Of a stretch of 64,000 nucleotides of DNA, positions 2,982 to 60,954 are shown piece by piece; the first letter of the stretch is position 1; each line of letters opens with the position of its first letter. The stretch covers positions 48,549,058 to 48,613,057 of the forward strand of contig OX392532.1 of the NCBI GenBank assembly GCA_947623455.1, read 5' to 3'. Below the pieces are notes generated by a model. That model had not been told where the DNA came from. It made no database searches and saw only the letters and a list, made by a program, of their open reading frames with translations. The translations under genes were made by a program, and so were the position numbers. This DNA is from Mimachlamys varia (taxonomy: Eukaryota > Mollusca > Bivalvia > Pectinida > Pectinidae).

Positions 2982-2987
2982 TTTATT
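2982..2987 (-). terminator. Candidate polyadenylation signal of gene A
   Basis: AATAAA on the minus strand, 34 nt after the proposed stop codon of gene A. It is plausible by position, but such hexamers are common in AT-rich DNA. Confidence 0.35.
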
Positions 2988-3020: not shown

Positions 3021-3096
3021 TTATATAAATTTGTATCTATAAAAACTCATAGGATCCTCCTCATATGGAGAATAAATAGACATTCTGGCTTTTAAA
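3021..3096 (-). CDS. Gene A candidate terminal exon
   Basis: After acceptor GATATTTCAG the required frame stays open for 25 codons (beginning TLKARMSIYS and ending YRYKFI), then reaches TAA at 3023-3021. There is no good internal donor. An AATAAA lies 34 nt downstream on this strand. An open stretch of this length can occur by chance and the gene could end elsewhere. Confidence 0.45.
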
Positions 3097-6000
3097 CTGA
3101 AATATCAGAGCAGTATTATTTTCCTTCTGTAAAAAGTCCAAATATCATCCCATCGTTTTTAAAGATTGAAATATTATTGGGAATATAATACAGTGAAACC
3201 TCGCTCACAAAATCCCAAAGACTTAAGACAACCTCGCTATTACATCCACTTCAGTTCAGTCCCGAATTATATATATATATATATATATCTTTGTATTTTA
3301 AGCTTCACTATTAAGACAACCTCAGTATTAAGACCATTTCGCTATTTAGATCAAATTTGCAAAGTCCATAATACCACTCTTGCACAAATTAACACCTCAC
3401 TACTAAGACCACTGACTAAACATAAAGTCACCTGGTGTATATTCCACTGTGTACACATGTCAAGTGTCAGATCAGTAAGCTGTGTTTTGGTGTCAAATTG
3501 GTTAATCAGTTAAAATTACAGTAGTCCTCCGGTATACCCCCCCTCCCCGTTTCTATTGCCAAACCCGCATACCTCCATGATGCAAATATAAACCGACTTC
3601 CGCACTATATCAAACCCCGTTAATATTTCCATTTCCCGCATAATCGCCATCCGCCAATCATTCTCAAATACAAACATGATTTATGCCCCGAACATATCGC
3701 CATTGTTTACGTTGTTGGGCAGATAATTGGCAAATAATATGCTCGTTAATGATTCAGTCATGCGTGTATAATCTACCTTTACAGGCAAACGTGTTGGCAG
3801 CCCCAGGTTAACACTGTTGAAATAACTCACCTCGTATAATTTCAAGTATTTTGTTATTGTTGTCTTAACATTCAATAACTCATTTTCGTAGGTTTACTGC
3901 TGTGAGAACTTAGGATACAGCTTTACGGTAACATGCCTTCTGGTGATGGGACTATGTTGCCGGAGAAAAGTATCAATCCAGTACCGGTTAATAGTGATTT
4001 GTGAAAAAAATTACACGAAAACGACCGCGCACGCGCCATGACAGATCTCGCGAGAATTGCTTTCAATTCGTTACGGAATATTACGGTCAATTAATATGGC
4101 GGGTGTCGTCGATGAAGCAGAAGACGCTTACTCTTCCGAAACACCTGGTCTTAGTCTCTTGTACTTTTGCAAGGGTTTCCATGTAAATATTTCCTTTGTT
4201 CAAATTTTGCCCCATGGTTATATCGATTTTGAGTTTGGATTATGATTATGTTGACGCTTCGGTATTCTCTTATTTTATATCAGCCACCGCTATGTAAACT
4301 TGTATGTATTACTCCCGCACCAATAACGACCAAACGGAACTCAAAATTAAATCTTTGGGTACAAGGAGAGATCAAATCAATTCCTATTATTATAGTAAAG
4401 TGCAGTTCAGTAAGAACCATCCCCGATCAAAACGTCAAAAATGACACCGGACAAAAGGTGGCGGTACAACGTGGGATAACTGTAATGTGAATTTAACATT
4501 TAGAGCCTATAAATAAATTTATGGACTGTGAAAACATGTCAAAAAATTATTTAAAGAAATCTTTCTGCATGGTTACCCTCGGTAGTACTAAGGCCATCTT
4601 GCTATCAAGACCATTTTGATTTGGTCCCTAAGGCGGTTTTAATAGAGAGTTTCACAGTTGTACATTTTTGGTGAATATTTGGTTATGCAACCCTGAAAAC
4701 TAGTAATCTAAGATATCATCAGAATAACCTTAAGAAAATCGTTAGCAGAACAAGAAGTAAACGTTTAATATGAATTATATCGTATCATCACAGCTTGATA
4801 TTGCATTCGTTGTAATTATATCTCATCACTACAGTCCTCTATATGATTTTCATTTTCTAAACGTGATGAATACACTTTGTCTAACTACTTACGTTAATTC
4901 ACTATCAAGGAGGGCTTGTAAAGATGACTGCGTCCTGCAAAATAATATTAAACATTACCAGTATGTATATATCTATCAACCGACAATTAATACACGTAGT
5001 TGTAATCTAAGTTCAGTTTTGAAATATATAGGTTTTGATTTCCAATCTACAAATTCGATACTGTAAGCTATATTATGTAATTTACTGATAATATTTGTAT
5101 GGCAAAATTATTATTTTCAGTTATACGCTGATCTAAGATTGCATGGTATACTTTCAGACGGACGCATTATAAAAAGGTATGTCATTATGTAACCAAACTA
5201 TAACGAAACATCTTACTGTTTCAGAAGATCAGCTACAGAACTGGACTTCTCTCTGAAATCAACGAATGAACTGTGTTAACAATCTCTGTGAATAGTATCT
5301 GAACTTAAGCTACAAAGCTTAAGCTTAACCTTGCGAGTATCGTCGATGAAGCATTAATCTATGTAAAAATCACGTGAAAATTCATGTGGAATTCATGTCA
5401 AGAACTTAACATGCAAAAGAAATAAGTAAATCAAAAATCAACCTAAACTTCAAACGACATCTACGCGGAATTTGTCATGTAAAATTTAGCACATCTCACA
5501 TGAGATTCACGTGAGAAAATATTCCCTGTAATTTTAATAATCTTCCGGATCACCTTTTCCTATTTCTTGTACTTTTTTAAGTGTCTCCGTCTAGATATTT
5601 TTTCTTTTTATAATTTGCTCGAGTAAGAGTACGGAATATGGTTTTGTTGATGCTTCGGTATTCTTTAATTTGTTTTGTACATGTCTATTCACTTTGAACT
5701 ACAATAGCTACATTTAGTCTGGTCCGATTAAAATAGTCGCAAGAAAAATAATATACTCACAAGTCTGAACTGTCAAGGATATCCCCAATCCTGAAACATG
5801 AGGTACGGTATTGTCTTCAAACCTCACTCTCAGTTTATATTTCTTGGTATTCAAACTGGTGTGCAGTATAAGGATTGTACCTCATTTTGACTGCGTATAC
5901 GGTAGTATGCCTGCAGTTGGCAATGAACATATTATATGGTGCGCGTTAGCGCTCCATAGTGAATATGTTCGTTGCCAGCTGCGGGCATACTACCGTATAT

Positions 6001-9000
6001 GCAGTCAAAATGAGGTACAATCCTTATATGTAAACAAACTATTATTCATTTTCAAGTGCTATACGGAGAAAAAACATTCGAAGCGGGTTGCCAAGATGGT
6101 AACTACGATGACCCTGGTTGCTAAGATAATATAGTCCCATTGGATTTCATCAATATATTGGTAAATTAAGAAAATACACAATGAACAACACTATATGTAA
6201 ATTTGGTATTAAATACTATTTCTAGCATGTCGAATTAATTTCTTTATTTATAACGGTCATTATGCACACGCATTGACACAGTGATCTGGTTGTGACGCGG
6301 TCCGACGACAGACGTCACAACTGCAGGGCGCCGCCATGTTTGCGTTTCCGTCAATGAGTTTCGAATGTGCATCATTACGATTCAAAAGTTTGCTAGAAAT
6401 TTTTTATTGTTTAAACACAGGAAAATGATTCCATATATGTTCCATGTTTCAAAATATTGTCGGAACCAAACACCGACAGCGAATACTTATTTATTGATCT
6501 GAAGCGTGAACGACGCCATATTTGAACAAATATCAATCCGCCGAGCCTTTTTTCACTGTGTTTACGCCAATATATTCGCAGTCAGAGTTTATTAAGCACA
6601 AAAAGGAAGGGGTGTCAATATAAACAATTAAGTGGGATACTGAAAACATGCACCACTTTAACCGAGATACGAAATCATCGATAGATTTATTATTTGATAA
6701 GGGATGCACATTTCTTGTAAATATACTAACCATTTAACTGAATCATACACCAACAACTCAGTTGCTTCAATTATAATTTCAGCTATTTTGAGCATACTAT
6801 ATATTCAGATAATTATGAATTTCTAAATATATAATATTAACGCACAAAGTACACACGTCCTTTTCTATTACATCATACAAAATTTCCTTGGCTTTTCCCT
6901 GTCAAACTATGTCGAACTATCTGTAAAAAAATATTCCGTAGTATTTCATCCTGAATCATTCGTTTGAAATAAGTAAATGTTACTCACCTTTGATGAATAG
7001 TATTAACACAGTCTATGCTGAAGTGAAATAAGATGCATCATTTTAATATGTATAGAATTCATTTTAAACAATGCAGAACTTGGAATCAATTGGTAACAAT
7101 TTCTGTTCCAATGTTCATTCTTCAAAATGAAATCCCTTATTAAAGTTAGCATTATAATTGCTAAGCTGTACTGTGTTTGACCGAGAGCGGACGCTCGCTT
7201 TCGGTAGGCATTTTTTGGTCTAAAGCATTGTTAAATAAAAGTTGCTCGATGTTAATAGGAATTTGCCTTTTTGAAGATACCAATCCGATTACATATACGT
7301 ACAATGATTATATACATATTTTAAATTCGATTTTGCATTAAAATCTTTCAAACATGCATTTGTGTAATTATTGAACATTTTGTTGAATAGTTTTATTTAA
7401 TCACAACGTTCGAGGTCGTATAATGTGCTCGTTTTGAGGTATAACTGGACGAACTTGTACGTATTTATGAATGTTTTACGAATTCTACTTGAAATTCCAG
7501 TTAGCACGAATTTGTGATTTTATTGCATTGCGATAATCTTTATTTCCTTCAATACAACTATGAATCAATTATTTGGTCTTGAAATACACCTTTTAAGATA
7601 TTTGAATGTAGGAAGTACTTCGAGTAAACTGTACAAGAAGAAAATTCAAACGGTCGGGCAGACGACCCCATACCTGTTCAAGTTCGATGGCGGAAATTAA
7701 CCCAGGCGTCTTGGTGAACAACATAATCTAACCCCCCTCAAAAATGGTCCTATCTGATTTAGTCTGTTAATATTACGAAGTTATTTAGTCATTTTAGAAA
7801 ATACAACAATATCGTTAAACTTGTCTTGATTTGATTATTAGACAATGTTGAGATTTGTACTTACATCCCCCAAAAGAGGAAAAGCATACGGTCTGTCCAT
7901 CTGAAACCAACACCGAAACAATTATTTTATATCAATAATAATTCGTGTCGACAAAACAAAGGACGAAGTTAATGCATATTTGTTATACAGTTGCTAACAT
8001 GGAATAGTCATTGTAAAGTTTGTGCTTTATTTATGTAGATATACAAGCTCTCCACGTCTATATTTTATTTAATACAGACGACATATAGTAATGCATTAGA
8101 CAATTTACATAAACGGAAATCCACATATATAGTTTAACTTCGATGTTTCGAACTTTGCGGAGCCGCCGTGAAAACTTCGACTCATGAACATCGAACATCG
8201 ACATGTATAGATGTACTTTAAATGTATCAATTCAATATGGTTGCGCATTTAAATTTGATATACATACCCTGCCCTTCCAAACCTGAAAAAGAAAGAACTA
8301 GATTACTAAAGGTTCTACCTCCCGTATACACACAATATTCAACATGCAATTAGTATTCAGCAAATACCATTAGTAAAAGTTCAATTCTGTTCACGTCAGC
8401 AATGATATAGGATACTTTCGGCTGATAATTAAGCAATGAATGTTTTAGCAAATGTTGTAGTTACAGTCCAATAACACACATTGCTTTTGATAACAAACTT
8501 AAAAAAAGCCCGGTAGGGCTTTATGTGATTTAGTCAGCAATAACAATGTGTGTTATAGGACTGTAACAATATTTGCTAAAATGTTCATTACTTATATTCA
8601 CATTTTGATAGAACTATTGTGATCTATTTAGTTTCTTTGGACCGATTTTGAACAGTAAATCAAGTGAAGAAAACAACGAAATTGATGACATCACAATATA
8701 GATTGATGACTTCACAATAGCAACTGCTATTATAGTCTGAGGCACTGGGTGTTATAGCCGTATGGCAGTAACTGCCTCTTAGCATTGTGTCAATGGAAAA
8801 TTGCAGGGCAAATGTAACTATTAACTATATGTATTTCGCATTGTAGTCCATTAAGTTCCACACCTCTAGCCAAACGTTTTTAACAAATGACCAAACAGAC
8901 AGTTGTCTTTTATATTTGATTAGAAATGTTTCCAGAAACAGTCTATAGCTAAATATATTACATAGACGAATTTTCGTTTACTCTTGTATTGTGAGCAGTG

Positions 9001-12000
9001 AAACTTCCTGTAACGAAAGTGCAAAAAAATGCTTTATTGTTAATATGTTTTTAAATATGATCAATGTAATGTACTTACTGGTTTTGAAGATCCTTTAGTT
9101 TCCAAGAGCTGGAAGAAATATATACCTTTATGGGTTAGATATATCATACGTTCCATCACACAGAGAAATCTAAAAGCTTTCATAACAGATAATTTCTTCA
9201 TCTATTTCTCTCTTTAAAACACAATGTTCTCCTGATTTATGATTATACAAATCTAGTTATCCAAGATGACTGCGCCATGACGTTAAAAATATGATTTTTT
9301 GTCAACAGCCAAATCTCGAAAATAAGTCACAAGGTAAAAAAAAAAAAAAACCATATCTCGAAACCATGATTGTGCAAAATTGATGTAATTATATTATTTG
9401 TAGATCATCGTCTTTTGCAATATTCAGTTGAACACAAAATATTCCACATTGCATAACTAGCTGTCACATAAAAAAACTTAAATATATATATCTATGGTCT
9501 AGTAAGTAATATCGAAGATATGATCCATTATATAAACTGGATCCTAACAAACAAATGATCGTTGGATGCGTATTACTAGAAATAGATATATGATCCTATA
9601 TTTAGATAAATCTATATATTTTTAATTTCAAATGTTTTTAAAATTTGTTTTACCTATCAATTCAGAATGTCATCCTGATGAATTTAATGTTTTCAATTTT
9701 TCTGTAAAACTTACGGCTTCCGTTATACGCTTTTTGAAAATTCCATTATACATGTATAGTCTATATATGCCGACATTTTGATAATGTTTGATAAACTTGT
9801 TCTAGATGTAAATATCAAGCTTTAATTTAATAACTTTTTATGGAAATGCTATTTCAAGGTGTCCCTGTAATATGGTAATAGTTTTAAGTTCTTAAAGCAA
9901 ATGGCCGCTATCACGTCATATCCGTTTTTATCTTTAAATGCTGCAATATCTTAAATGTCAACTTCCGGTTGTCGGTTTGAAGCTTAAAAGTGCTATTTTG
10001 GGTAAGAGACATTTAACAAACTTCTGCCCAAGGTTTGTTAGGTCTGGGGCCGTGATAATTCACATTTGAGATGTTAATGTCAAGGATTATTATGTTGGAA
10101 AATATGAATGACCTTGACCCACTCTCAAGGTCATATGGGCCTTGACCCATCCTCAAGGTCATATGGGTTATTTATCTTAAAACATGTAGAGGTCAAATTA
10201 GAAACGTGCTACTCTAGGTAGCAAATTTTGAAGAGAGGCTCTGGCTTTGGCTGCCAGTGGCGGAAGGGAAGTATTTCGTAAATTATGCAAGAGTTACCTC
10301 CCTTTTACCAAAGACAATATCAGCCGTAGATGTGAAATGCTCATCAAATTGTTAGCCGACAATTTTTATAAATATATATTTGTTTGAATATGATGACCTC
10401 CTATCAATTCACATGCTAATCTGACATTTACATTGTACCCAAGAAACAATATAATATTGAATCAGAATTAAGTTTCATCAGATAGTCATAGTAGAAATGT
10501 AATCCTTGAAAGATAACTTATGACCGACTTGGAATACGTCTTTGTTTTCAACATGTATAAAGTACGTACACATTTTTGTCGATATATTGTTTGTCATCAA
10601 CTTTTGTATAAGCCGTTATTTTGATGGCGTCATTTTTGTGATGATTACTGGTTAATATGCAAATTTTGTTATGTCACAATAAATCTTCATGCTCCACTTT
10701 ATAAACTTGCATTGTGAATAGATGTGTATTGTGTCGTCACTTTGTTTATGACGTCATGATGTCGTCCGTTTTGAAATAAAACTTTCCTGAAGAGCCCCAA
10801 AGAGAGTAAAAGCTCTTGGAATTCGGTCGCCGTCTTTTCATTTATTTTATCTATATATATATATATTTATTAAGGCTACTTATAGCAGACTTACGATTGG
10901 GCCCATTTGTATAACCTGAAATCAAACATATTTATCATAAATTCTTTATGCAATATTAAAATAACCAATTATCATTTACTTTTATAATAATAAATTGACA
11001 AAAAACAACAACGCCGTTCAATGACCTTTGACCATGATTTAACAAAATTAAGTTCTTTGCACAGTATGACACATTTTGTCTTGTTTTATATAAAGATACA
11101 ATTTAAATGAATAACGATTTAATGAACTTGAATACTTTACTAAAGTCCGACTTGCACTATATATAAATATATCATTGCCCTTATAAAACTATGTGCATGC
11201 GAACGATATATATTTAATGATTGACATCTTTTTGTGTTATATTTATTAGATTTTAAATCCTCTGGGCAGAATTAAACTTTGCTCACTGCTCCATTGGAGT
11301 AATGATCTCATAAAACATAGAATATAAAAGGTTAATCATTATATTAACATGATTTTTCTTTGAACGGTTCATAACTTTTGTGTTCATAATAATATGTCTA
11401 TGAGATGATTACTCTAGTTAGCGAGAAAATGGTAATCGAGTGAATATCCGTGTAGACTGTAAATACGAAGCTGTACCATGGACATGCATAAGTCATTACA
11501 TTATTGCGACATATTCTAGAGCAAACAACTCCGTTAAACGCAAAATCGCATTTGTGATCTTATTTGATAGTCGCCTGATAATTATGGATATGGCATTAAA
11601 TTATTGTTCTAAGAAGTACATATTTTATAATTCCGACCGATTGCAAAATCGGTTAACAATTTTGACCCAAGATATCCACCAAAATGAAAACCTGGAAATA
11701 ATGCAGGCATATTTATCTGTATTAATCCAATAGCATAATGTTAGAATATTATATAACACCAATTTTGCAATATATTCACTGTCACTTACTCGTCTAACAA
11801 GGCGAATTGATCTTCATCAGACCTGTAAATAAAACAAAATGCATCAAATAAACAAGAGGAACAGTGATAGTTGAGCAATGCATTTTGAGAAAAAGAAAAA
11901 TAATAAAAAAGACGTCTGTTCATGAAAGGCACATCACACTACAAACTTTGTTTTTTTTATTATTATTATAGAAATTCACAAGTCTTTGATTGTTTAAATA

Positions 12001-27000: not shown

Positions 27001-30000
27001 AAATAAAACATCCCGTAAATCTACAATTTCGGGATGGCGACAATCAATGCAACAGTGTGCTAAAACATCTTTAGCATAACAATTACATTTTAACATAAAA
27101 GTTCACAGTCTGGACTTATTGTCCATAACTTTGCAACTTTTTGGCAAATTAAGCTAACTCGAATATTGCAAAACTTCCATAAGAAGTAAAGTGGCGAGGG
27201 AACTAGAGAAGTGTGAAGAATTTTGAAACGACTAAAGCAACCGGAGGTACTCAAGCGATTTTTCCAATTATCCTCCTCCTTACTCAAAATTGATTGTTTA
27301 ACAATTTGTTTCACTGAGCCTTCTTTGGGAATATACCCGAGTTGATACATACTTATGTACAACAAACCATGTATTTGGAATTACACCATCGGTACTCTTG
27401 TAAATGTGATATGACTTATGGAATAAGCGCATTAAAAATAGTTGCTTAATGGCACAATATGGCATAAGATAGCATAATGACCCTAAAAAATTAAGTTTAC
27501 ATTGGTCTACTCTAGCTGAAAGAGATGTTAAACCCAACATTCCTAAACAGATGTCAGATCTAGTACGTAAAGGAAAACATTGAATTAGTTTTACACATAG
27601 ATTTAGGATCTTTTCTAAACGACTCCAATCCGAACTGGAGAGAAGAAACCACAGTTCAAAACTGTATAGACCACGTGGTCAAATGATGGATCTATACAGC
27701 CTTAAACAAATTAAAGGGTTGATATTTTCTCCTATCAAACTTGACCCGAGAAAACCAAAGCTTGATGTTGTAGCATGAATGTCAACATCGCGTAACGATA
27801 CGTTGATATGTGTTTTTAGCAGGAAAGTTACGTATTTTGAGCCTTTTATATCAAACAGAAACACATGTGTTTTATTTACGAATAAAGAAAATGGTCACCA
27901 TACTTGCAATAACCTAATAAAGCAATATTGCGTGGAATTTAGTAATCACTATTCGTTTTATTTCCCTAAGCTAAGAAATATTCGTTACTATTAACATTTT
28001 ATTTTATTTGCTTGTATAAAAACATTTGCCTATCATCTGCATTAAGCAATAAGCAAGGATACATGTATAAGATCATTTAAGGATATGCTATTGTGGGGTT
28101 TCAATCACGTTGAAATTTCGTTTGATCTCACGTGAGATATGTTTGTAATATCTAATAATGTATTATCAATTTTGAAAGCAAATTTGCATCTATAAAATAT
28201 AGCAAAAAAATAGATGTCTGTTGTTTGTAGAACTTTTTTTTGGAAGAATTAAAAAAAATGACAATAATGGCGGTCATTGTAAGTCATTGTAAAAATTAGT
28301 ATTTCTGTGATTTTCTTGAACTTCAGGAATGGCAATTTTTTTTCTGAGCTTGATTCATCGTTTAAAATCGTCAGTGTGTCGCCATTTTTAACCATAGTAA
28401 GATGATTTTTTACTTTTCACAAGAGAAGATAATTAATGCAGAACCTATGCTGTTGTTAAATTGTCAGCTCTTTTTATTCAACTAACACTGACAATTGCAA
28501 ACACTTATGAGATAGCATAAAAGCATACTTACTCCTGCAACAGTGCTTCTCGTTCCCTGAGGACAGAAAAAAATACATTTGATTATTCAATAATGAGCCA
28601 TTTCAATTAACATTTAATTGGCAAGTACTTCGGTCAAACAGGTATCATAAGAATCGAGAATTACTAAGGACAGTGTATAGAGACTTTACAATAGACCAAA
28701 TCACATGACGTTATTCTGGCGCTATGTTTGACTACGTAATATCACAATTCGCCTCAGATAGCATTATTTAAGCATTAAACAGTATTCTGTTCCGTGTTAT
28801 TGGATCATAACAAGGGACAGAATGCTGTTCAATGCTTAAATTTACATTTCCATTAGTTTTTATATTGGATTGATATTTATATTCTACAATTTGTTCTGAA
28901 ACTTTAAGGTATATTTCTAATAAATAGAACAGCCAGTATCGGTCAGCTTTCTCCGATGATTATGATTATGATTATGACGTCACAATCTCAATGACGTAAT
29001 AATGACCACTCCAGTGTTATGATCTGATAACACGGAAATGACCTTGGTAATGTTATTAAGTAACAGAGCACAGCACATGTAAATATAATGGTTTTGAATC
29101 AATCGCGTAGATGAAACTGATTTAAATCAGGCTATTATTGCGTCATTTATGGTGCCATCTTGGACTAAATTACGTCAACGCTTTGCACTCCGCTGCAGAT
29201 AACATGTTTAATGGCTTTTATACAATAACTAAGATGACATTGGCTTAAATCAGGCCTTTCCAGTAAATGAACACATACGAAAAAGGGGAAAACGTTTATC
29301 GACTACATTCCAAAGAAATAAGCACAGGCATATTTCAAAACTATCCCTTATGTAAATATAAGCATTGAACTGTAACCAGATGTGGTATACATTCGATATG
29401 AATAAAATCGTGGTACCAAATACATAACGGGCGACATTATAGTTATCTATCACCCAAATTGTATTCATATCGACCGTATAATACATTGGTAACAGTTCAA
29501 TTCTTCAATGTAGAACACCCTGCTTTTCTAGATGTTTGGATGCATATGCTATTTTTGACGAGAATACATACCGTATATTTTTGTCCTTGAACCCGTCCAT
29601 TCTACAATAACAAATAAATCTAATTTAATTTCACAGAAATATATTTTGCTTCCGAAGTAAAAAATAAAAACTCTAAACGAGTATCATAAATATAATATGA
29701 GGAGAAATTAACGAATGACAGATTATTTTGATCATATGACGTTTTTTCTTTGCCATTCTTGCCAACTGATTTCAATATGTCGAACCAAATAACCCAATCC
29801 GTCAAAATAGGTTAAATATACCGGCGAACGAAGAAGTAGTCCAACACAATTGACTCTTGCAATTTTATGACAGTTTTAACTAATATTATGACAGCTAAAT
29901 TGTCCCTAGTGATTAGAAACAATGAATAAAAACTTTAAGTTTGACTGTGCCTGGACGAGTGTCCTTTGGTATGCCATTCATGAATCTGGCCGGATGTGAC

Positions 30001-33000
30001 AATATCGTGACGTCACTTGGTGCGATAATGTCTTGTTCGTTGCCGTTTAGCTATCACTGTCGTACAAAACTGATGAGTGGCGTTTTCCTACAGTTGGAAA
30101 ATTATCCTTATAACCGCGGGAGTCAAGAGTGATGTTGATTGTGCACCGATAATGTTTTAAATGGACATTTTGTTCAAACATTTTTAAAAGACACCATTTG
30201 AGGTCGATTTGTTAACAGTGTAAGGCAGGTTTGTTGACGTCAGCTGATTTTGTTATACCGTTTTTGGGGAAGGATCCTCGGATCGAAATATATTGTGTAG
30301 AATAGTATTGTCTGTAATTATGTACTCCTGTCTTTGTTGTCAATCTTAACTTCATCGGCAACTCCGAATATTATCATTCTACTAGCAGTAGGAAGTTGTA
30401 CGCTTCGTAGTAAGAAAAAGTAGTCGTTCCCGTGCGTATTGATACAGTTCACAATGAACCAGCCAATCAGCGAAGCGGAAGGTGTTTTAACATTTGTGAA
30501 ATATAATGGCTTTATTACACCGCATATAACGGTAGTCATATGATAAATATATATATGTAACTGTAGATTTTTTATGACATTATTTTTGTTGTCAACATGC
30601 AAGTGGTTAATATTTCGGTTCAATGATGCAATCAGCTCGACCCACCTATTTAGCAAATAACAAAATACACCTGTGTCCCGACAGTAGGAAGCCCAATTAA
30701 GATAATTTGATGGCAAGTGGATGTGAGCAGGGTGTCTTCCCACTCGGCCAAAATACCTTATTTATTATGGGACACGGGTTGTGTTGTTACAGGGTGATAC
30801 GATGTAACTATGTATTAATTACAAGTAAGCTATATCAAGCATGTTCTTTTGGAAATAAACTACACTGTATATAATAACGAATTTCTCTGATATGGTGACT
30901 AGAGGAATGAGTAGGCCTGAGTACACAATGAGTATGGCGTCACAAATGCAATATTGACTCGGTGTTTCTAAAAATGGAAACTTTAGTTGGATATCACAAA
31001 ATTTGGACCTCCATGTGCAACTGTAAATTTCATTCTTTATCAAGATAAATATACTGCAATTACGTCTTTTGCAAACAAGTTTCACATTTAATATAAAAAT
31101 TAAAGGCCTTTGATTCGGTCACTATGCTGTTATACCAACCTGGTATAATCTAAAATATTGACCATTCAGCCCTCGGTCAATATATGATTCTACCAGGTTG
31201 GTATAACACCATATTGACCTCAGCAAAGGTCCATAATTGATATGTATCTACTTCTACTGGATCGTATATATATCCCCTACAGATGACGGAAATTTCTATT
31301 CAAATTTATTAATTATCCATGGGTTTTGTTTAATTTTGTTTTTAATCGTTCCTCGCGATCTGTTTTCGGTTCGTCCTAGAAGCGTTTCTATTATGTTTTC
31401 ATTTCGTTCCGTTTGTAAACTGAAACGATGACACCCCTGTACGAAATATACATTTCAGAGCCGATGCTTCCAAGAAGACGCTATAAACAGGCTCCGTATT
31501 AGAAGAAAAAAATGAATATTTGTCATTTCACGCTGCTGTTTTTAAGAAAAATATATAGTATCAAAATGGTGCAATTTTGCTTATTTGGGAAATGCATAAA
31601 ATAGACAGAAATACGCATATTCAAAATGGCCGCCAAACTGGTATTATTTTTTTTTTTAATGCACGTAAAAAAGTTCTTCAAGCAGCAGAAACTTATATTT
31701 TTGAAACAATTTTCAGATGCATATACACTGTATGCTATTAAAATTGATCATACTTTCTTCAATATAACATAAAACCTTTAAATGAGACATAAAAGAGACT
31801 TGAACGTGACTGAAACCTCACATGAGTATATCCTTAAGTCACTTAAAATGATAAGCTAGCATTATATAAAAATCATATTCTAAATCAATATTTTAAAGGT
31901 ACAATCGAACCAATTTGTTGCAGCCTTTCAAATTATACAATGATAATACATACTCGTTACTCCATAGACCCCACTGACCGCAACTGAAATAACAACAGAC
32001 AGAAATGTAACGAAATCATAACTCTATAACAAGTTATAAATGCAATCTAATCACTAGCTAAGTATTGATATTATTTTACACGTCAAATAAATACACCTAG
32101 TATCTCACATCGTATTCAAAACGTATGTAATAGCATTGTTTCTGTTCAACTTTACATATTTAAATATATTAATATGTGACATCTCGATATTTTGTATTAT
32201 TTAATCATCTGAAAATGTTTTAAAACCATGTGCAATTGATAAATGTATGTACTAGCATGTTTAATTGGTTATTAAGACAAACACGTATGCATGCAATCAA
32301 AGGATATGAAACTATTGTCACGGGCTTTTTGCATGTATACGTTTAAAAACACTCATCTCATATATCAGTTTTCGCACGAACTATGTTTTGGATACATATT
32401 CAAAAACGGAAGGATGACGTTTTGAAGTATTGCCAATCACGTAAAACAATGCACTGTCCCAACCATCTTTGGGTATTTCCAAAGAGCTATCCCGCATTGC
32501 CTTTGAACAGATTTTGAGAGGTTAATAACACATGAAAACATAACAGACACGAGCCCGTGTTCTCTTCTTTTTTATATTGGAGCCGAATCGACGGTGATTT
32601 AGTTGCTACCCCATAGTGTCTGAAAGTTTGTTTGTCGGATTAAGTTCACAGTGTATATACCGTACCAGTCACCACCGGTGCTATACAATTATGATTGGAA
32701 AGTTCATGAAAATAGCTCATCATTTGCTTTGCTTTGTTTGAACCTTTTGGAAGAATCAATACACATGAACCTAAGTTGGCCAATACTTGGTGATAGGCCG
32801 ATCACTTAGCCTAACGTTACCGTATCCAGGCCCAGACATCTCACAACACTTCATTTTCAAACGTCTGTTTTTTTTTAGTTCAACAGATCCATGCACATTT
32901 ATCCAGTGGTTGTAAAACATTATTGATGGTTGTGAATAATAAATATGTTTACGTGTTTGTTAACGTGCATGTAATTAAATTCTGAGCATGATCCGTAATC

Positions 33001-36000
33001 CAGTCCTATTATTTAGCAGTCTTCGCCTTTGACCACGGGTTCAGCAACTGAGTTAAGTTTTCAAGTTTTTTTTTAACTTGAAGTGATTACAAAATATAGA
33101 AACAGAGCTTGAGTTCGGACTTTAATCTTGGCCATTAAGAATATTAGTGATACCCAAGCTAGGTATGCATTCATAGCGATGATCAGACTTCCATTTTTGA
33201 TATGGCCTGTTAATCCTCTATAAGATCTACTACTTAGTATATTCGTGACGGTCGCTCCATCAATGAATGAACAGAATTTTTGTCGTATATCTAGTAATGT
33301 AATATCGGTACATCTAGTGTGACATTTTATGTATTACATTCCAGCCATTACCAGCCCCAATATTCATAATATGCTTTAAATGTACGTATACATATCATAC
33401 CAACACCGTCAGGTCCGATATAAACATACTATAATCGAATGTGAAGATGTCTTGTTTGTCTATCATCTCATGAATGACTAAATCGTATATACGATATTGA
33501 TGTTAACAGCGTGTGAATAAAAACTCCAGTTGAGTTATTATTCATATTGACAATGTGCATTATTCTTGACATTACCACACTCTTTATTTATATGTTGGTC
33601 TATGCAATATCATCTTACAAGTGATAGAAAATGATGCAAGCATGTTTTTGTACATGATTTATATCATGGCAACAGTGAATGGATCCTGCCTGCGATATAA
33701 TTATATGCTGCATTAGACTTTCATTTTTGTATATTCATATAAAAGTTGGTGACATTTTACAGATATTATTTTTTTAATCAACATGTTCAAATTGCAAATG
33801 AACCAATTAGTAACAACAATTACACTCATATATTATAAATGATACATACGCATTCATTGCGGAGGTCTCATCTTGAAGTCTGAAATAAGTAAAACTATTT
33901 ATGAAGCACATACAGCTAAATATTGTGAAGTAACTTCCATGAAGGACTCACACAACTAAATAATTTACTATATGTTATTACTATGCTTTAGAGCTAATAA
34001 CTTTAATATTTGAAGTTCAACACTGGTGACAACAGCCTAGATTCACAGATACATACATGGCAAAGACTTCAAATGACATTTTATCAGAAGTTTCGTGGCA
34101 TTTAGCTCGCTACGGGCGTCTGCTTCGGACAACTGGAAATTTTCATATCAAACCAGTGAAATGGGACGGGAACACCCTCTGACTTTTGACCCCATACCAA
34201 TCCGCCATCACATAATAAAATCTACCAAAAGTATACATTTTTTAAAAGTTTAATATCTATAGATTTCATTCAATACAGAATATGTCAGCAATTACCTATT
34301 TAGATTATCAGAATCACTGTACTTAGCCGGAACAAATTTTCGGTAGGGACTACAAAAAAAAATAAAAACAAAAACAAAGAATACCAAAGTGTCAACAGAA
34401 CCATAATCCGAACTCAAAATCGATTAAACTAGGGGCAAAATAGGAACAAAGGAACGATTTACATGGAGACTCTCGTAAAAGCACAAGATAATAAGACCAT
34501 GTGTTCGGGAAGGGTAAGCGTCTTCTGCTTCATTGACGACACCCGCCATGTAAATCTTGGTCACATCCAAGTAAGCATCAATCCTCAAAATTAGAACCGA
34601 GTCATCATTGTCATCACAACAAGTAAACACACTAACAAGCAAACTCAAAAACGTCCATCTTCATATCACACAAAGATACAGAATATTTCTCGATGATATT
34701 AAGATGGCGACCATAAAACTTGCCCATAGTCTTCATTAACCTGCATTTCTCGAAACCCTGTGCCATAAGTTTGTTCGTCAGCAGTCGAAATCTATCATGA
34801 AAATCGCGATATTCAGAGCAAGCCCTAGAATAACGAATCAACAGCGACATGTAAACACCATAGGAAGTTAACAATCGGAAAATCGAAATCGTCACGTTTA
34901 TCATACAGCTTAGTAGTAAGTTGCCCGTGTTGGTCATAGTTTAAGTAAAGATCGAGGTAAGAAGCTGATGTAGGAGAGTCTGTTGTGTCTTTTATCTCAA
35001 GTTCAGTAGGGTAGATGCGATCGACTAGGTCAGCAAACTTCTTGTTGTTTATAGACAACACATCGTCGATATACCTGAAAGTGAAATTGAAAGATTTGGC
35101 AGGGTTTTTGTTACCCGTCCTGATAACCCCTCGACAAATTCAGCCTCGTATGAAAACAAAAACAAGTCAGCCAAAAGTGGTGCACAGTTAGTGCCCATTG
35201 GAATGCCAACAGTATGTTGGAAAACTATACAAAGATACGAGGGGTGTTCCAAAAATAATATCACTTGCATCGGTGCTCATATAGCGGAAGTGCTTTTGTT
35301 CCTTTTAATTTGCTCTGCCCTTCAAAATACTCTCCGCCAGCCAGAACGCACCTTTTAAGCCGGTCAATCCCTTTTTGGAAGCATTTTTAATACTCCTCAA
35401 TGGGTACATCCATCAGACATTGATAAACAGCAGATGCAAGGGCATTTCTCGAAATTGTATCTTCTTCCAGATAAATGCTCTTTAAGTTTTGGAAAGAGAA
35501 AATAGTCGCAGGGGGCCAAGTCTGGCGAATACGGAGGGTGCGGAAGGACGGTAACCTTCTCTGACTCCAAAAAGTCAGTCACAATACGTGCCTTGTGAGC
35601 GGGTGCATTATAATGCAAAAGTCGGACATACTTAAGTCCTGTTTTAGGGCGGCGACTTTTGTAGTACTTCTTCAACTTTCTCAGAACAACGTTTTTATAG
35701 AACTTGCCTGTGACCGTTCTGCCTTTCGGCACTGGGATTTGAATAGTTGGACCCTTATTAGTGACAAAATATCATACAAAAACCTTCTTTACCGTTCGTA
35801 TTCGTTTGGCAATACTTGGGCGTCTGGCATTTTTAGTGGCCCATATTCGGTTGGAAACCTTCCGCTTTGGTTCAAAATAATACACCCAGGTCTCATCACC
35901 AGTGACTATATTATCAAAAGCCTTTTTACTATATTTTAGGTACATTTTGAGAATTTTTTTTGCCATTGTTACACGCGTCTTCTTTTGCTCATCCGTTAAC

Positions 36001-37470
36001 AAATGGGGTATCCATCTTGCATTTACCTAACTTTTAGGTGTTTCTTCAAAATTGCATGAACTCTTGCTAACGGCAAGTTTGTCATTCGAGCCAATTGTCT
36101 TACGGTGAATCGAGCATCAGTTTGGAGGATATTTCGGATTTTGTCTATGTTACCTTTGGTCGTAGTTGTTGCAGGACGACCTGGGTGAACAGCATCTTTC
36201 AGTTGCTGCTGCCCAGCACTAAATTTACCTACAAACAGTCCTGTGAGACATATGGCCCTCCCCATAAATGTCACACACCTCGCGGTGAATATATACAGCC
36301 TTTATGCCGAGTAATGACCTACCGTTTATATAGGCCCTAATTTCAAGAACTTTTTCAGCTCGTTTTCCTATCATTTTGTGTCTAGTCTAACGAATAGGCT
36401 ATGAAACGATGTAAACTGCACCGAGGCCAGTGAACGTGTGGATGAGACTTTTACCTGTGTCACGAGCCAGTGATTACTCAATCGACACGAGGTGGTTTTG
36501 TGCATAAATTGCACGATTTCCGCGAAATAAAGCACAGATGACATTATTTATGGAACATCCCTCGTATTGTCAACCAGGAATTCAATCATTCGTACTATAT
36601 CTTCCTCAGTATATTTCAACCTAGCTTTTGTTGTGTTTTCACAAAGTATGCTCCAATATAGCTCACAACCATATATTTGTATCATCGTTCACCTTTCTTG
36701 GAAAAGAAAGCTCTCATAATGAGAGACCGAAGACGTTCTTTCAGTGGCATGTGTTATGGTAGTGTACAGGGTGGGAAAATCGAATGTTTTGATGGACGAA
36801 ACATTTTTGAGAAGGGGGTGCTTAAGACTGATCAGAAGATCTTTCTAGTTTTTCAAAATCCACATCCCATTAATGTCACTTCTGGAGTATACAGTGTCAT
36901 AATAAGACTGAGGAACGGTACTAAGAATGGTAGTAAGAAGTTTTGATAATGGCTTGGTTGAGCAATGAGACGAGCCGGCGATAAAACGTTGCTTATACGG
37001 ATCCTTGTGTAGTTTAGGTATCCAATATAGTCGAGGTAAGTCAGCGTATGAAACATTTCGTGATAGGCTGATTTAGTTGTGTGAGTCCTGAAGTCATCTC
37101 TCATAGTTCTAAATACAATAAGCTTGTTATTCAAACAAGAACCTGGACTGCTCTCCAGTAAATACATCAAATGTTATTTAAGATAAAAGCTATATTTCCT
37201 ACGAGTGGACTATGTCGTTATATGTATATGAAGCATGTCATATATCTAGTGACATATTGTCATTGATTATAGCGTCAATCCCGTGCGTTTATGATTCAAA
37301 CACATCGGAGTGTTGTCACCAGGTGTCTGTTTCTGGACTTAATACATATTTAAGAACACAGCGAAGTCGTCAAATAAAAAAAAATAGTAAAAGTAGTAAG
37401 AAATACCTTGGCTCCTGTCTTTCCGCCATGGTTGTATTTCCAAAAGAGATCTTCAGCGGTAGTCCGTCTC
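3021..37470 (-). CDS. Micro-exon gene A: 24 coding exons, about 262-residue protein of unknown family
   Basis: Seen: a series of short ORF pieces, each bounded by an AG acceptor (usually TTTCAG after a pyrimidine run) and a GT donor (mostly GTAAGT/GTATGT/GTGAGT). Coding exons, 5' to 3': 37429-37407, 34349-34296, 33879-33850, 31983-31954, 29601-29572, 28556-28533, 25350-25327, 24918-24889, 19689-19663, 18727-18671, 16047-16015, 15819-15778, 15012-14998, 12274-12254, 11822-11790, 10915-10895, 9108-9079, 8282-8268, 7900-7865, 7017-6988, 5790-5761, 5252-5217, 4934-4893, 3096-3021. All introns are phase 2, all internal exons are multiples of three, and the joined frame has no stop until TAA at 3021. 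The start ATGGCGG has A at -3. The product has no signal peptide. It has a charged, probably helical middle (exons 5-8), then several short Trp-containing segments and a hydrophobic patch (MLFLFWG). Function unknown. The last exon is the least certain. Paralog: gene B. Confidence 0.85.
3267..3288. repeat. (AT)n microsatellite
   Basis: About eleven AT repeats, inside the pogo-like element. Confidence 0.9.
4085..4255 (+). mobile_element. Penelope 3' module fragment
   Basis: Carries the recurrent segment ATGGCGGGTGTCGTCGATGA, CTTACTCTTCCG, TTTTGAGTTTGGATTATGAT and GACGCTTCGGTATTCTCT, with no RT sequence attached. Confidence 0.7.
4893..4934 (-). CDS. Gene A exon 23 (42 nt)
   Basis: Acceptor ATTATTTTGCAG, donor GTAAGT. 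Encodes QTQSSLQALLDSEL. It is open in the required phase. Confidence 0.7.
5217..5252 (-). CDS. Gene A exon 22 (36 nt)
   Basis: Acceptor CGTTGATTTCAG, donor GTAAGA. Encodes LEKSSSVADLLK. The complementary strand also shows splice-like signals here, but the length and phase fit gene A. Confidence 0.7.
5330..5670 (+). mobile_element. Penelope 3' module split by an insertion
   Basis: GTATCGTCGATGAAGC at 5338 and CTTCCGGATCACC at 5542, followed by the module end (GATGCTTCGGTATTCT), are separated by about 180 bp of unrelated sequence with a TTAATCT/ATAATCT pair at its edges. Confidence 0.5.
5761..5790 (-). CDS. Gene A exon 21 (30 nt)
   Basis: Acceptor CTCATGTTTCAG, donor GTGAGT. Encodes RIGDILDSSD. 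Confidence 0.78.
5866..6029. mobile_element. Hairpin MITE (near-perfect palindrome)
   Basis: Two arms of about 70 bp (TATAAGGATTGTACCTCATT at left, its complement at right) are separated by a short GC-rich centre containing GCGCGTTAGCGC. No ORF. It lies in an intron of gene A. Confidence 0.8.
6988..7017 (-). CDS. Gene A exon 20 (30 nt)
   Basis: Acceptor TTTCACTTCAG, donor GTGAGT. Encodes IIDCVNTIHQ. Confidence 0.82.
7865..7900 (-). CDS. Gene A exon 19 (36 nt)
   Basis: Acceptor GTTGGTTTCAG, donor GTAAGT. Encodes GWTDRMLFLFWG, a hydrophobic segment too short to be a clear transmembrane helix even when joined to exon 20. Confidence 0.83.
8268..8282 (-). CDS. Gene A exon 18 (15 nt)
   Basis: Acceptor TTCTTTTTCAG, donor GTATGT. 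Encodes QFGRA. Confidence 0.78.
8429..8595. mobile_element. Hairpin MITE
   Basis: Arms TAAGCAATGAATGTTTTAGC and its complement are about 55 bp each with few mismatches. The centre is AAGCCCGGTAGGGCTTT. Intron of gene A. Confidence 0.78.
9079..9108 (-). CDS. Gene A exon 17 (30 nt)
   Basis: Acceptor ATTTCTTCCAG, donor GTAAGT. Encodes SSWKLKDLQN. Confidence 0.84.
10109..10168. repeat. Tandem 28-bp duplication with TCAAGGTCA motifs
   Basis: CCTTGACCCA...TCAAGGTCATATGGG is repeated about twice. TGACCTTGA and TCAAGGTCA form inverted pairs resembling orphan nuclear-receptor half-sites, but similar words are common in bivalve repeats. Confidence 0.6.
10895..10915 (-). CDS. Gene A exon 16 (21 nt)
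   Basis: Acceptor TTTGATTTCAG, donor GTAAGT. Encodes ELYKWAQ, similar to exon 14. Confidence 0.82.
11790..11822 (-). CDS. Gene A exon 15 (33 nt)
   Basis: Acceptor TTTTATTTACAG, donor GTAAGT. Encodes MSDEDQFALLD, an acidic segment. Confidence 0.83.
12254..12274 (-). CDS. Gene A exon 14 (21 nt)
   Basis: Acceptor TCTGTTTTCAG, donor GTAAGT. Encodes MLSNWAN. It resembles exon 16 in length, in nucleotides and in the central Trp-Ala, which suggests exon duplication. Confidence 0.8.
14586..14640 (+). mobile_element. Penelope 3' terminal scrap
   Basis: About 55 bp matching the last part of the 3' module (TTTAATCGATTTTGAGTTTG then ACGCTTCGGTATTCTCTGAT). Confidence 0.6.
14998..15012 (-). CDS. Gene A exon 13 (15 nt)
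   Basis: Acceptor AATATTTCAG, donor GTAAGT. It encodes only RAPWD and is tied with exon 18 as the smallest exon in the gene. Confidence 0.78.
15778..15819 (-). CDS. Gene A exon 12 (42 nt)
   Basis: A poly-T tract ends in AAACAG; the donor is GTAAGT. Encodes RLMEQLQTPYIIQY. Confidence 0.82.
16015..16047 (-). CDS. Gene A exon 11 (33 nt)
   Basis: A poly-T tract ends in CGCAG; the donor is GTGGGT. Encodes KIGSDHLHRLK. Confidence 0.8.
16133..17647. mobile_element. 1.5-kb DNA element with 28-bp terminal inverted repeats
   Basis: The left end TACAGACCCGCACACGTTCG and the right end (reverse complement TACAGACCCGTACACGTTCG) continue into GCTGTTC. Next to both ends are CCGTAGCA and GCGTAGCA-type subterminal repeats, which run in the same direction at the two ends. 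There is no transposase. The ORF at 17181-17585 mostly reads through the subterminal repeats. It lies between gene A exons 10 and 11. The target duplication is unclear. Confidence 0.6.
17845..17915 (+). mobile_element. Penelope 3' terminal scrap
   Basis: Matches the end of the 3' module (AACGATTTTGTTCGAATTGC then GACGCTTTGGTGTTCTCTGA). Confidence 0.55.
18340..18535 (+). mobile_element. Penelope 3' module fragment
   Basis: An isolated copy of the module from GATTGATGCTTACTTGGATG to TATTTTGCCCCT, antisense within the intron between gene A exons 10 and 11. An open frame of about 60 codons is shared with other copies but probably reflects simple sequence identity. Confidence 0.65.
18671..18727 (-). 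CDS. Gene A exon 10 (57 nt)
   Basis: A strong pyrimidine tract ends in CTCTATTTCTCAG; the donor is GTGAGT. Encodes SVFKKYRDIRLDAIVSYNA. It is the largest internal exon. Confidence 0.82.
19663..19689 (-). CDS. Gene A exon 9 (27 nt)
   Basis: Acceptor TTTACATTTCAG, donor GTATTT. Encodes NSPAFQFVD. The frame is open and the length keeps phase 2. Confidence 0.72.
20130..22175 (+). mobile_element. Near-complete Penelope-like retroelement, frameshifted, with 3' hammerhead
   Basis: 5' flank boxes shared with the short unit (20134-20230); an N-terminal ORF from about 20257 (VVSADKASNN region); RT motif A (FDFSTLYTTIPH, about 20882), motif B (GIPMGTNCAPLLADLF, about 21145-21192) and motif C (YIDDVL, about 21278-21295); a C-terminal part to about 21735; the 3' module at 21795-21990; then a terminal segment with a hammerhead at 22057-22100. 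The LYTTIPH and YIDD style is that of Penelope-like elements, which are known to carry hammerheads; subfamily not assigned. No GIY-YIG endonuclease is visible. Several frameshifts, for example near 20570 and 21205, make it a pseudogene. It lies antisense in the intron between gene A exons 8 and 9. Confidence 0.8.
22057..22100 (+). ncRNA. Hammerhead ribozyme, intact core
   Basis: Stem I GCAUCA (22057-22062) pairs with UGAUGU (22095-22100). The core CUGACGA is at 22063-22069. Stem II is GUCC/GGAC with loop CAGAA. GAAA is at 22083-22086. Stem III is a minimal A-U, C-G stem with loop AGUC, and the cleavage position is A22094. All invariant core bases are present. Topology is type I with a very short stem III, as reported for Penelope-like elements. 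Confidence 0.85.
22197..22435. mobile_element. 239-bp MITE with GGGCCCAGTTGTTCAAA termini
   Basis: Both ends carry the inverted repeat GGGCCCAGTTGTTCAAA. The interior is AT-rich with no ORF. It sits directly after the end of the Penelope-like copy. Confidence 0.75.
22566..22650. repeat. (GTAT)n(GGTA)n microsatellite
   Basis: GTAT repeats pass into about thirteen GGTA repeats. Confidence 0.95.
22969..23135 (-). mobile_element. Penelope-like N-terminal fragment
   Basis: The minus-strand ORF ends with a segment SRLLSELVNSIRSSIQKRI that matches the start of the ORF in the copy at 20257. Truncated on both sides. Confidence 0.6.
23775..24000 (+). mobile_element. Penelope 3' module fragment
   Basis: ACTCGGTTTTCATTTTGAGG through GACGCTTTGGTATTCTCCGA, without RT sequence. 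Confidence 0.65.
24889..24918 (-). CDS. Gene A exon 8 (30 nt)
   Basis: Acceptor TTTTATTTCAG, donor GTAAGT. Encodes RLRALDERFS, a charged segment that is probably helical. Confidence 0.87.
25327..25350 (-). CDS. Gene A exon 7 (24 nt)
   Basis: Acceptor TTTTTGCAG, donor GTAAGT. Encodes DLEKNMPA in the required phase. Confidence 0.85.
26098..26246. mobile_element. Hairpin MITE
   Basis: ATTGAACGGCGTT arms extend about 60 bp with GTTACATCCATATTG near the centre and the stem-loop GAAGCCCTAGCGGGCTTC at the axis. Confidence 0.8.
26285..26345 (+). mobile_element. Penelope 3' terminal scrap
   Basis: TTTTGAGTTCGAATTATGGT then GACGCTTTGGTTTTCTCT, directly after the hairpin MITE. Confidence 0.55.
26520..27870 (-). 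mobile_element. 5'-truncated non-LTR retrotransposon, frameshifted
   Basis: On the minus strand: an RT C-terminal region (LERTH-like position reading SRLEKILNLCVKLIQ, then RSDICLGMLGLTSLSARVD, then KLNFLGSLC), a shift into LGYIPKEGS...NWKNRLSTS...FKILHTSL, and another into a Cys/His knuckle (CNCYAKDVLAHCCIDC). The 3' end is AATAAAGATATGAATGAATG, a short tandem tail typical of CR1/L2-type elements. At least two frameshifts; dead. Intron of gene A, same strand. Confidence 0.7.
28533..28556 (-). CDS. Gene A exon 6 (24 nt)
   Basis: Acceptor CTGTCCTCAG, donor GTAAGT. Encodes REREALLQ, matching gene B REREELLL, which also comes from a 24-nt exon at 63811-63834. Confidence 0.9.
28768..28840. mobile_element. 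Short hairpin element
   Basis: TTAAGCATTAAACAGTATTC and its near complement flank a TTATTGGATCATAA centre. Confidence 0.65.
29572..29601 (-). CDS. Gene A exon 5 (30 nt)
   Basis: Acceptor GTTATTGTAG, donor GTATGT. Encodes EMDGFKDKNI, which closely matches gene B EIDSFKDKDE (63253-63282). This is the strongest exon-level evidence that the genes are paralogs. Confidence 0.9.
31104..31231. mobile_element. Hairpin MITE, family shared with 40012-40145
   Basis: GTTATACCAACCTGGTA arms, GGTCAATAT inner repeats and CAGCCCTCGG centre. The same order occurs in reverse orientation at 40012-40145. Confidence 0.75.
31954..31983 (-). CDS. Gene A exon 4 (30 nt)
   Basis: Acceptor GTTATTTCAG, donor GTATGT. 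Encodes ACGQWGLWSN, the counterpart of gene B EYVQWTRWRK at 63015-63044 (shared QWxxW). Confidence 0.88.
33850..33879 (-). CDS. Gene A exon 3 (30 nt)
   Basis: Acceptor TTATTTCAG, donor GTATGT. Encodes RLQDETSAMN. It is one of the 30-nt exons typical of both paralogs. Confidence 0.85.
34296..34349 (-). CDS. Gene A exon 2 (54 nt)
   Basis: A long T-rich tract ends in TGTAG at the acceptor; the donor is GTAATT. The exon encodes SPYRKFVPAKYSDSDNLN in the required phase. A weaker internal acceptor (TACAG) would give a 21-nt version that is also in frame, so alternative acceptor use is possible. Confidence 0.72.
35238..36564 (-). mobile_element. Full-length mariner element (1,327 bp)
   Basis: Terminal inverted repeats CGAGGGGTGTTCCAAAAATA (left) and CGAGGGATGTTCCATAAATA (right, complement) are flanked by TA on both sides (35236-35237, 36565-36566), the expected target duplication. 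The size is typical for the family. Confidence 0.9.
35397..36274 (-). pseudogene. Mariner transposase, broken
   Basis: An N-terminal helix-turn-helix part (36274-36023; ARFTVRQLARMTNLP), then in other frames GDETWVYYFEP (first catalytic Asp) and HPPYSPDLAPCDYFLFPKLK (third Asp). The second catalytic Asp, normally in HDN, reads HYN (LLHYNAPAHKA), so the DDD triad is broken as well as the frame. Inactive. Confidence 0.85.
37407..37470 (-). CDS. Gene A exon 1 (start codon exon)
   Basis: The acceptor CTTCTTTAG lies 41 nt upstream of the ATG (37429-37427), so a non-coding leader exon must lie further upstream. The exon encodes MAERQEP plus AG, with donor GTATTT. Both the ATGGCGGAA start and the upstream acceptor are shared with gene B at 60900-60954. 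Confidence 0.8.
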
Positions 37471-39006: not shown

Positions 39007-39145
39007 TCTCGTTATTACGAGAAACGTTATCTCGTTATTACGAGATACGTTATCTCGTTATTACGAGATACGCTAAGTCGTTATTACGAGTTACGCTAAG
39101 TCGTTATTACGAGTTACGCTAAGTCGTCATTACGAGATAGGTTAT
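39007..39145. repeat. Left array of palindromic CGTTATTACG units
   Basis: About six units of roughly 20 bp, each centred on CGTTATTACG and often extended to TCTCGTTATTACGAGA, which is itself palindromic. Confidence 0.9.
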
Positions 39146-40964: not shown

Positions 40965-41265
40965 GTATCTCGTAATAACGACTTAGCGTAACTCGTAATA
41001 ACGAGATAACTTATGTCGTAATAACGACTAAGCATAACTCGTAATAACGAGATAACGTATCTTGTAATAACGACTTAGCTTAACTCGTAATAAAGAGATA
41101 ACTTATCTCGTAACAACGACTTAGCGTAACTCGTAATAACGAGATAACGTATCTTGTAATAACGACTTAGCTTAACTCGTAATAAAGAGATAACCTATCT
41201 CGTAATAACGACTTAGCGTATCTCGTAATAACGAGATAACTTAACTCGTAATAACGAGATAAATA
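40965..41265. repeat. Right array of CGTAATAACG units
   Basis: About fourteen CGTAATAACG-centred units, alternating CTTAGCGTAACT and GAGATAACTTAT spacers. It is the inverse of the left array but longer. Confidence 0.9.
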
Positions 41266-55680: not shown

Positions 55681-55694
55681 ATTTTTTAATTACA

Positions 55695-60899: not shown

Positions 60900-60954
60900 G
60901 GGGCGTACTCTCACTTTTGAAATCACAAAAAATGGCGGAAGCAAAGGCGCAAAG
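60900..60954 (+). CDS. Gene B exon 1 (start codon exon)
   Basis: Acceptor TTTCTTTAG at 60891-60899, ATGGCGG at 60932 with A at -3, donor GTAATT. Encodes MAEAKAQ plus AG, parallel to MAERQEP plus AG in gene A. Confidence 0.82.

Follow-up and report, generated by a model that had tools for sequence, protein, structure and literature searches.

A probable micro-exon gene of about 26 coding exons, with a divergently transcribed paralog, in the bivalve Mimachlamys varia

Can a chain of exons only a few codons long, strung through DNA that has no long open reading frames, be a gene at all, and if so of what kind? The question is raised by a 64,000-nucleotide (nt) stretch of the Mimachlamys varia genome (assembly GCA_947623455.1, contig OX392532.1, positions 48,549,058 to 48,613,057 of the forward strand), which we call the window and number from its first letter, and for which a preliminary description had proposed a minus-strand gene made almost entirely of microexons. 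Our analysis of the minus strand from 37470 to 3021 (the region) suggests that it holds a protein-coding gene with some 26 coding exons, belonging to a family with a paralog in the same window, a reading to which we give a probability of roughly 0.9 (Table 1).

The most immediate alternative is that the exon chain is a chance assembly from plentiful AG and GT dinucleotides, chosen to suit one frame, and the raw material for such an assembly certainly exists: when splice quality is ignored, the minus strand of the region offers 756 phase-2 AG..GT candidates of 15-57 nt. With no exon list supplied beforehand, we rebuilt the gene from scratch. Because short open AG..GT segments are this common by chance, acceptor/donor pairs of 9-75 nt were found with generic splice matrices and ranked by splice score alone, with length and frame ignored and overlaps resolved by score. 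Eighteen minus-strand pairs in the region scored at least 7, and the lengths of all 18 were divisible by three (binomial p = 2.6e-9 against an expectation of 1/3); 17 of them were open in phase 2, as against 7/18 in phase 0 and 6/18 in phase 1, and all 17 are exons of our final model. Lowering the threshold to at least 5 gave 23 of 28 pairs with lengths divisible by three, 22 of these 23 being open in phase 2. At the threshold of 7, the whole window yielded 8 pairs on its plus strand, where 3 lengths were multiples of three and paralog exons proved to account for three of the eight pairs (60900-60954, 63253-63282 and 63811-63834); the plus strand of the region yielded 5 pairs, with 1/5 divisible by three. 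The remaining minus strand gave only 4 pairs, of which 3/4 were again divisible by three, a point in favour of chance, although just 1/4 was open in phase 2. Moreover, when the region was simulated 60 times with a fourth-order Markov model, the number of symmetric phase-2-open pairs averaged 1.15 and never exceeded 3, compared with the 17 observed. The excess of symmetric phase-2 exons and their uniform phase are thus features of the sequence itself, and the frame-blind scan with its controls rules out chaining of chance AG and GT borders as a working explanation; considering also that blastn finds a collinear paralog without any exon model, we regard a chance chain as extremely improbable.

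This paralog lies on the plus strand, starts at about 60.9 kb and runs past the end of the window, and its exons were found by rescoring with matrices fitted to the exons of the gene. A self-blastn of the whole window, which uses no exon information, matches the loci to each other at exons 1, 4, 5 and 6, collinear and in divergent orientation. A fifth pair, at exon 3, is recognised by the similarity of its flanks, which score 54 where the 99.98% quantile of the null is 44, a score that was not reached once in 6000 draws made from 67 decoys; with blastn alone its E value is 0.018. On this homology the predicted family has at least one further member, divergently transcribed within the same window. 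The five pairs follow one another in the same order, and in all of them the coding lengths are equal in both loci (23, 30, 30, 30 and 24 nt), as is the phase. When the four blastn pairs were compared without gaps, their lengths being equal, the 107 nt showed a net length change of 0, while their flanks contain 34 indel events in 480 nt, from which 7.6 would be expected in the exons; length and frame therefore look protected, although the letters do not. Four stretches of intron were also aligned between the loci and compared with 20 shuffles: two alignments outscored every shuffle, one equalled the highest and one scored below it.

The final model comprises 852 nt and encodes 283 amino acids (aa), and it replaces a first-pass model of 22 exons and 251 aa to which four weaker exons were added later. 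Its internal exons form 24 consecutive microexons of 15-57 nt (mean 31.4, median 30), separated by introns of 195-5400 nt (median 874). With the generic matrices 17 of the 24 internal exons score at least 7, and when each of the 20 internal exons in the 22-exon model was scored with itself left out of the matrix fit, the sums ranged from 8.0 to 26.8. For exons below the blind threshold, GT-AG borders, a length divisible by three and phase-2 openness were required at picking, and therefore none of these properties is independent evidence for those exons. Likewise, the absence of internal stops from the spliced frame is partly by construction; the other two frames hold 18 and 24. The G+C fraction by codon position (22-exon version) is 0.46, 0.33 and 0.38, and that of the window, taken in 2-kb steps, is 0.31-0.40. 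Part of the pyrimidine tract of exon 2 comes from a repeat that ends near 34367. Three further candidate exons, 36180-36154 (27 nt), 19689-19663 (27 nt) and 13049-13014, were weak and had no homologous support, and were left out. Rfam gave no match over the window, and ARAGORN no tRNA in it. An enrichment of UGC upstream of acceptors is a feature of vertebrate neuronal microexons; here we found none (0.0082 versus 0.0109 per base).

Against this background most of the preliminary description stands, with amendments. A micro-exon gene in DNA without long open reading frames is borne out by the frame-blind scan and by paralog homology for five exons, and its regularity, said there to be beyond chance, is confirmed by the contrast with simulation reported above. 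The proposed count of 24 exons and about 262 residues is slightly below the 26 exons and 283 aa of our model. AG/GT borders, phase 2 and a single open frame had been claimed for every exon, which holds for the 17 blind exons, the others having been chosen to fit; and the list of exon lengths given there is correct in its span of 15-57 nt, but omits the 39-nt exon at 7590..7628 and includes a 27-nt exon that has no place in our model. The interpretation as a whole is supported, but it included neither the paralog that occupies 60.9-64.0 kb, nor the exon duplicated in tandem there, nor the parallel with bicycle genes discussed below.

Several observations weigh against reading the region as a gene with a paralog. 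The 18th strong pair of the blind scan, 3899-3831 in the last intron, has a length divisible by three but no open phase. Generic scores fall below 7 for seven of the internal exons (starting at 33879, 31983, 15012, 10915, 7900, 5790 and 5252), and only those starting at 33879 and 31983 have paralog backing; the acceptor of exon 18 becomes negative (-2.7) when that exon is left out of the matrix fit. Exons 13 and 17, with refit scores of 18.2 and 13.7, are uncertain because these lie near or within the plus-strand background, where the best phase-2 pair outside the paralog reaches 17.4. On the side of the paralog, we found no counterpart of exon 2, and the letters of the exon 3 pair can be aligned only if gaps that offset one another are placed within the exon. 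Identity over the four blastn pairs is 77/107 (72%) in exons versus 347/438 aligned positions (79%) in flanks. The ratio of nonsynonymous to synonymous substitution rates (dN/dS) is 0.43 over 31 codons and does not depart from neutrality (Fisher p 0.15), so that neither amino-acid constraint nor positive selection is shown by it; in particular, positive selection is unsupported. Exon conservation no better than that of the flanks and a dN/dS indistinguishable from 1 would both suit a once-functional gene that is now a pseudogene or unexpressed, with only exon traces kept in the two copies. However, a decayed gene would have to account for 17/18 frame-blind exons that are still open in one phase behind strong splice sites, and for the kept lengths of the four blastn-paired exons in the face of the 7.6 expected indels, and we consider this explanation very unlikely.

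How could a gene have come to be built in this way? In the paralog, 61425-61454 and 62257-62286 are the same exon with its flanks in tandem (88 nt, 77% identity, E 4.8e-11 in the whole-window blastn and 7e-14 in a second blastn). By this alignment the paralog carries a tandem exon duplication, and the two-copy locus displays one step of growth directly. Within the gene itself, exons 15 and 17 align in splice-site register with a single-pair p of 0.0015, uncorrected, but over 561 comparisons such similarity is at chance level, about one being expected, which tells against a second case; a duplication here is suggestive at most. We propose that the gene would have grown by the copying of short intron-exon-intron units. 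If the copied units lay between phase-2 introns, the uniform phase of the internal exons would be accounted for as an inheritance from founder exons.

Such growth also leaves a gene in which, for 322 of the 325 possible forward joins between exons, no stop codon arises where the two meet. Almost any exons could therefore be dropped without a break in frame, and cells may make variants by exon skipping, which the structure permits; we put the predicted isoform variation at about even odds. The opposing view, which is compatible with a real gene and denies the skipping step only, is that all microexons are constitutive, that there is no isoform diversity, and that the structure merely reflects the duplication of exons and the growth of introns by mobile elements. 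It draws on the generic scores of at least 7 in 17/24 internal exons and on the repeats contained in the introns, whereas the seven weak internal exons speak against it, weak splice scores being common among alternative exons; we judge it a serious possibility, somewhat short of an even chance.

The 5' end bears on where the product might be sent. The ATG of exon 1 lies inside an exon with an acceptor of its own at 37471, and an upstream exon is therefore likely. Moreover, in both copies the frame of the ATG continues open through the leader (37430-37470 minus, 60900-60931 plus), whose lengths differ by 9 bases, and an upstream coding exon could supply an N-terminal extension. The acceptor is common to both copies, and so are the first nine coding bases, the latter fitting a start codon. 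A search for shared 5' exons upstream of both genes returned mainly repeat matches and one weak match near exon 1. About 1 kb upstream of exon 1 there is a 57-nt acceptor-donor pair at 38404-38460 (minus) with a score of 10.0 that is open in no phase and could be a 5' untranslated exon.

As modelled, the protein begins with a polar N-terminus, where the highest 9-residue Kyte-Doolittle mean is -0.34. Its most hydrophobic 19-residue stretch has a mean of 1.55, the usual limit being 1.6, and there is no clear membrane span. It contains 3 cysteines and no CYC motif. The preliminary description had recognised no family, and this is unchanged by searches of the spliced protein: Pfam returned no family up to E 10 for either the 283-aa protein or the 55-aa part of the paralog, and PDB sequences gave no match to the 283-aa protein up to E 10. 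With the 251-aa version, PHROGs listed three families, the best at E 0.054, which we do not accept as a match, and none of 4 pattern matches in viral contigs or 15 in prokaryote genome contigs was confirmed. Composition and inspection suggest, rather weakly, a mainly helical intracellular protein; counting against the helical character, the helix moment exceeds the strand moment in only 152/270 windows, with 47 above 0.4. In such a protein, fast-changing modules might tune binding to a partner, a role that we consider considerably less probable than isoform variation.

Is this gene, then, a relative of micro-exon genes already described? The comparison made here is one of structures and published descriptions. 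An operational definition of micro-exon genes (MEGs) in PMC7653826 asks for at least 7 exons, at least half of them microexons (below 70 nt and divisible by three), with a run of at least 4. Here 24 of the 26 exons are microexons in a single run of 24, with 17 of the 24 coming from the frame-blind scan, and by structure the gene is a micro-exon gene; we do not claim its membership in the flatworm MEGs or the bicycle genes. In the MEGs of schistosomes and tapeworms, as here, tiny exons whose lengths are mostly multiples of three follow one another in long runs, with introns of 0.1-5 kb between them, and the genes are duplicated and difficult to annotate (PMC10526429, PMC7653826, PMC5825161). 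However, flatworm MEG products are nearly always secreted or membrane-anchored (PMC5825161, PMC10526429), and every MEG examined in PMC5825161 has a predicted signal peptide, whereas our gene has no signal-like N-terminus as far as hydropathy goes, an upstream coding exon being possible. The contrast with secreted schistosome MEGs drawn in the preliminary description thus holds as far as checked, which was by hydropathy and with no signal-peptide program. Moreover, the size given for most S. mansoni microexons is 15 nt, half the median here.

Bicycle genes of aphids, phylloxerids and scale insects, which have about 17 exons on average and diverge strongly, similarly have many small internal exons, nearly all in one phase that is called phase 2 (PMC9168663). 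Provided that its 'phase 2' follows the convention used here, the published bicycle classifier (cut-off 0.72) gives our gene a linear score of 14.1 and a probability above 0.999999; for the 22-exon model the score is 11.2, or -35.4 with the exons taken as phase 1. A single aphid supplied the training data for this classifier, whose phase convention is left open in the passages of PMC9168663 consulted. The usual CYC motifs and N-terminal signal sequence of bicycle proteins were found in neither case in our gene, although CYC is usual rather than universal, some bicycle homologs lacking clear motifs (PMC9168663). It could accordingly be argued that the gene is genuinely related to the flatworm MEGs or the aphid bicycle genes and has either lost its signal peptide or receives it from an upstream exon, in line with its exon number, sizes and phase, the conditional classifier score, the acceptor and open leader that could allow an added N-terminus in both copies, and the bicycle homologs without clear motifs. 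Yet only 3 cysteines in 283 aa, no CYC motif, no hydrophobic N-terminus, first nine coding bases that are identical in both copies as befits a start codon, and a classifier of such narrow training and open phase convention all argue otherwise, and we hold a true relationship to be decidedly unlikely. With neither a signal-like N-terminus nor a CYC motif, we therefore file the gene in neither group.

Caseins and related genes provide a third comparison: they have many short symmetric exons in phase 0 and secreted products. The likeness is that short symmetric exons multiply by duplication; here, in contrast, the phase is 2 and there is no signal-like N-terminus. In molluscs, a literature search over the titles and abstract openings of open-licence papers found no such microexon gene family.

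Table 1. Predicted exons of the gene and of its paralog, with the candidate polyadenylation signal (window coordinates)
Feature	Position	Strand	Details
Exon 1	37407..37470	-	Acceptor at 37471; 41-nt leader; ATG 37429; MAERQEP; ends in phase 2; paralog 60900-60954, E 1.6e-4
Exon 2	34296..34349	-	54 nt; splice scores 6.2/2.2; repeat copy ends about 17 nt upstream
Exon 3	33850..33879	-	30 nt; LQDETSAMN; donor weak with generic matrix; paralog 62257-62286
Exon 4	31954..31983	-	30 nt; CGQWGLWSN; paralog 63015-63044, E 4e-18
Exon 5	29572..29601	-	30 nt; MDGFKDKNI; paralog 63253-63282, E 2.7e-14
Exon 6	28533..28556	-	24 nt; EREALLQ; paralog 63811-63834, E 1.1e-12
Exon 7	25327..25350	-	24 nt
Exon 8	24889..24918	-	30 nt
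Exon 9	24128..24148	-	21 nt
Exon 10	18671..18727	-	57 nt
Exon 11	16015..16047	-	33 nt
Exon 12	15778..15819	-	42 nt
Exon 13	14998..15012	-	15 nt; uncertain; splice scores 2.2/2.5; refit 18.2
Exon 14	14069..14098	-	30 nt
Exon 15	12254..12274	-	21 nt
Exon 16	11790..11822	-	33 nt
Exon 17	10895..10915	-	21 nt; uncertain; splice scores 2.7/1.4; refit 13.7; possible tandem duplicate of exon 15
Exon 18	9079..9108	-	30 nt
Exon 19	8268..8282	-	15 nt
Exon 20	7865..7900	-	36 nt
Exon 21	7590..7628	-	39 nt
Exon 22	6988..7017	-	30 nt
Exon 23	5761..5790	-	30 nt
Exon 24	5217..5252	-	36 nt; splice scores weak
Exon 25	4893..4934	-	42 nt
Exon 26, coding part of last exon	3021..3096	-	TAA stop 3023-3021
AATAAA, possible poly(A) signal	2982..2987	-	33 nt past stop
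Paralog exon 1	60900..60954	+	Acceptor; 32-nt leader; ATG 60932; MAEAKAQ
Paralog exon	61425..61454	+	30 nt; RDQLENSDG; tandem duplicate of 62257-62286; donor weak (-4.1)
Paralog exon	62257..62286	+	30 nt; SDQSEDSDE; pairs with exon 3
Paralog exon	63015..63044	+	30 nt; YVQWTRWRK; pairs with exon 4
Paralog exon	63253..63282	+	30 nt; IDSFKDKDE; pairs with exon 5
Paralog exon	63811..63834	+	24 nt; EREELLL; pairs with exon 6; last found before window end

The rest of the window contains repeats and traces of mobile elements. Pfam was run on 20 of the 38 stop-to-stop open reading frames of at least 95 aa and gave two matches. In the first intron of the gene, within surroundings of 36.4-35.3 kb, 35397-35771 (minus) encodes a degenerate mariner-like transposase (DDE_3, E 1.9e-6, 28.2 bits, below the curated cut-off of 28.6). 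The other, a weak match to DUF5426 at 60781-61128 (E 0.0052), was likewise below cut-off; the reading frame that contains it overlaps paralog exon 1 but is arranged differently. By self-blastn one repeat family has copies at 55722-56613, 35224-34367, 21097-21987, 1476-2136, 46478-46838 and 59750-60061. The open reading frame 55499-56080, which we take to resemble a Penelope-like reverse transcriptase, had no match in Pfam. Between the divergent genes, 39006-39145 and 40965-41262 are two 23/46-base tandem repeat arrays of palindromic TCTCGTAATAACGAGA-like units. A splice-site-like segment at 47557-47486 (minus), with a score of 11.0 and open in no phase, recurs by eye at about 245-320 (minus), and both lie inside matches of one repeat.

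We offer, tentatively and at appreciably less than even odds, the reading that the two loci belong to a micro-exon family that evolved independently, outside flatworms and plant-sucking insects, and whose products would be intracellular, each a folded protein made of exchangeable modules of about 10 residues and diversified by exon copying and skipping. If so, they would provide an independent case in which to test the part played by uniform phase and exon duplication in the making of variable proteins. Genes of this kind are readily overlooked by ordinary annotation, and should families of this type, with products that are not secreted, occur beyond flatworms and aphids, micro-exon architecture would not be tied in general to secreted effectors. 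Were the reading true, building with microexon modules would be a general way of making fast-evolving recognition proteins rather than a peculiarity of secreted effectors.
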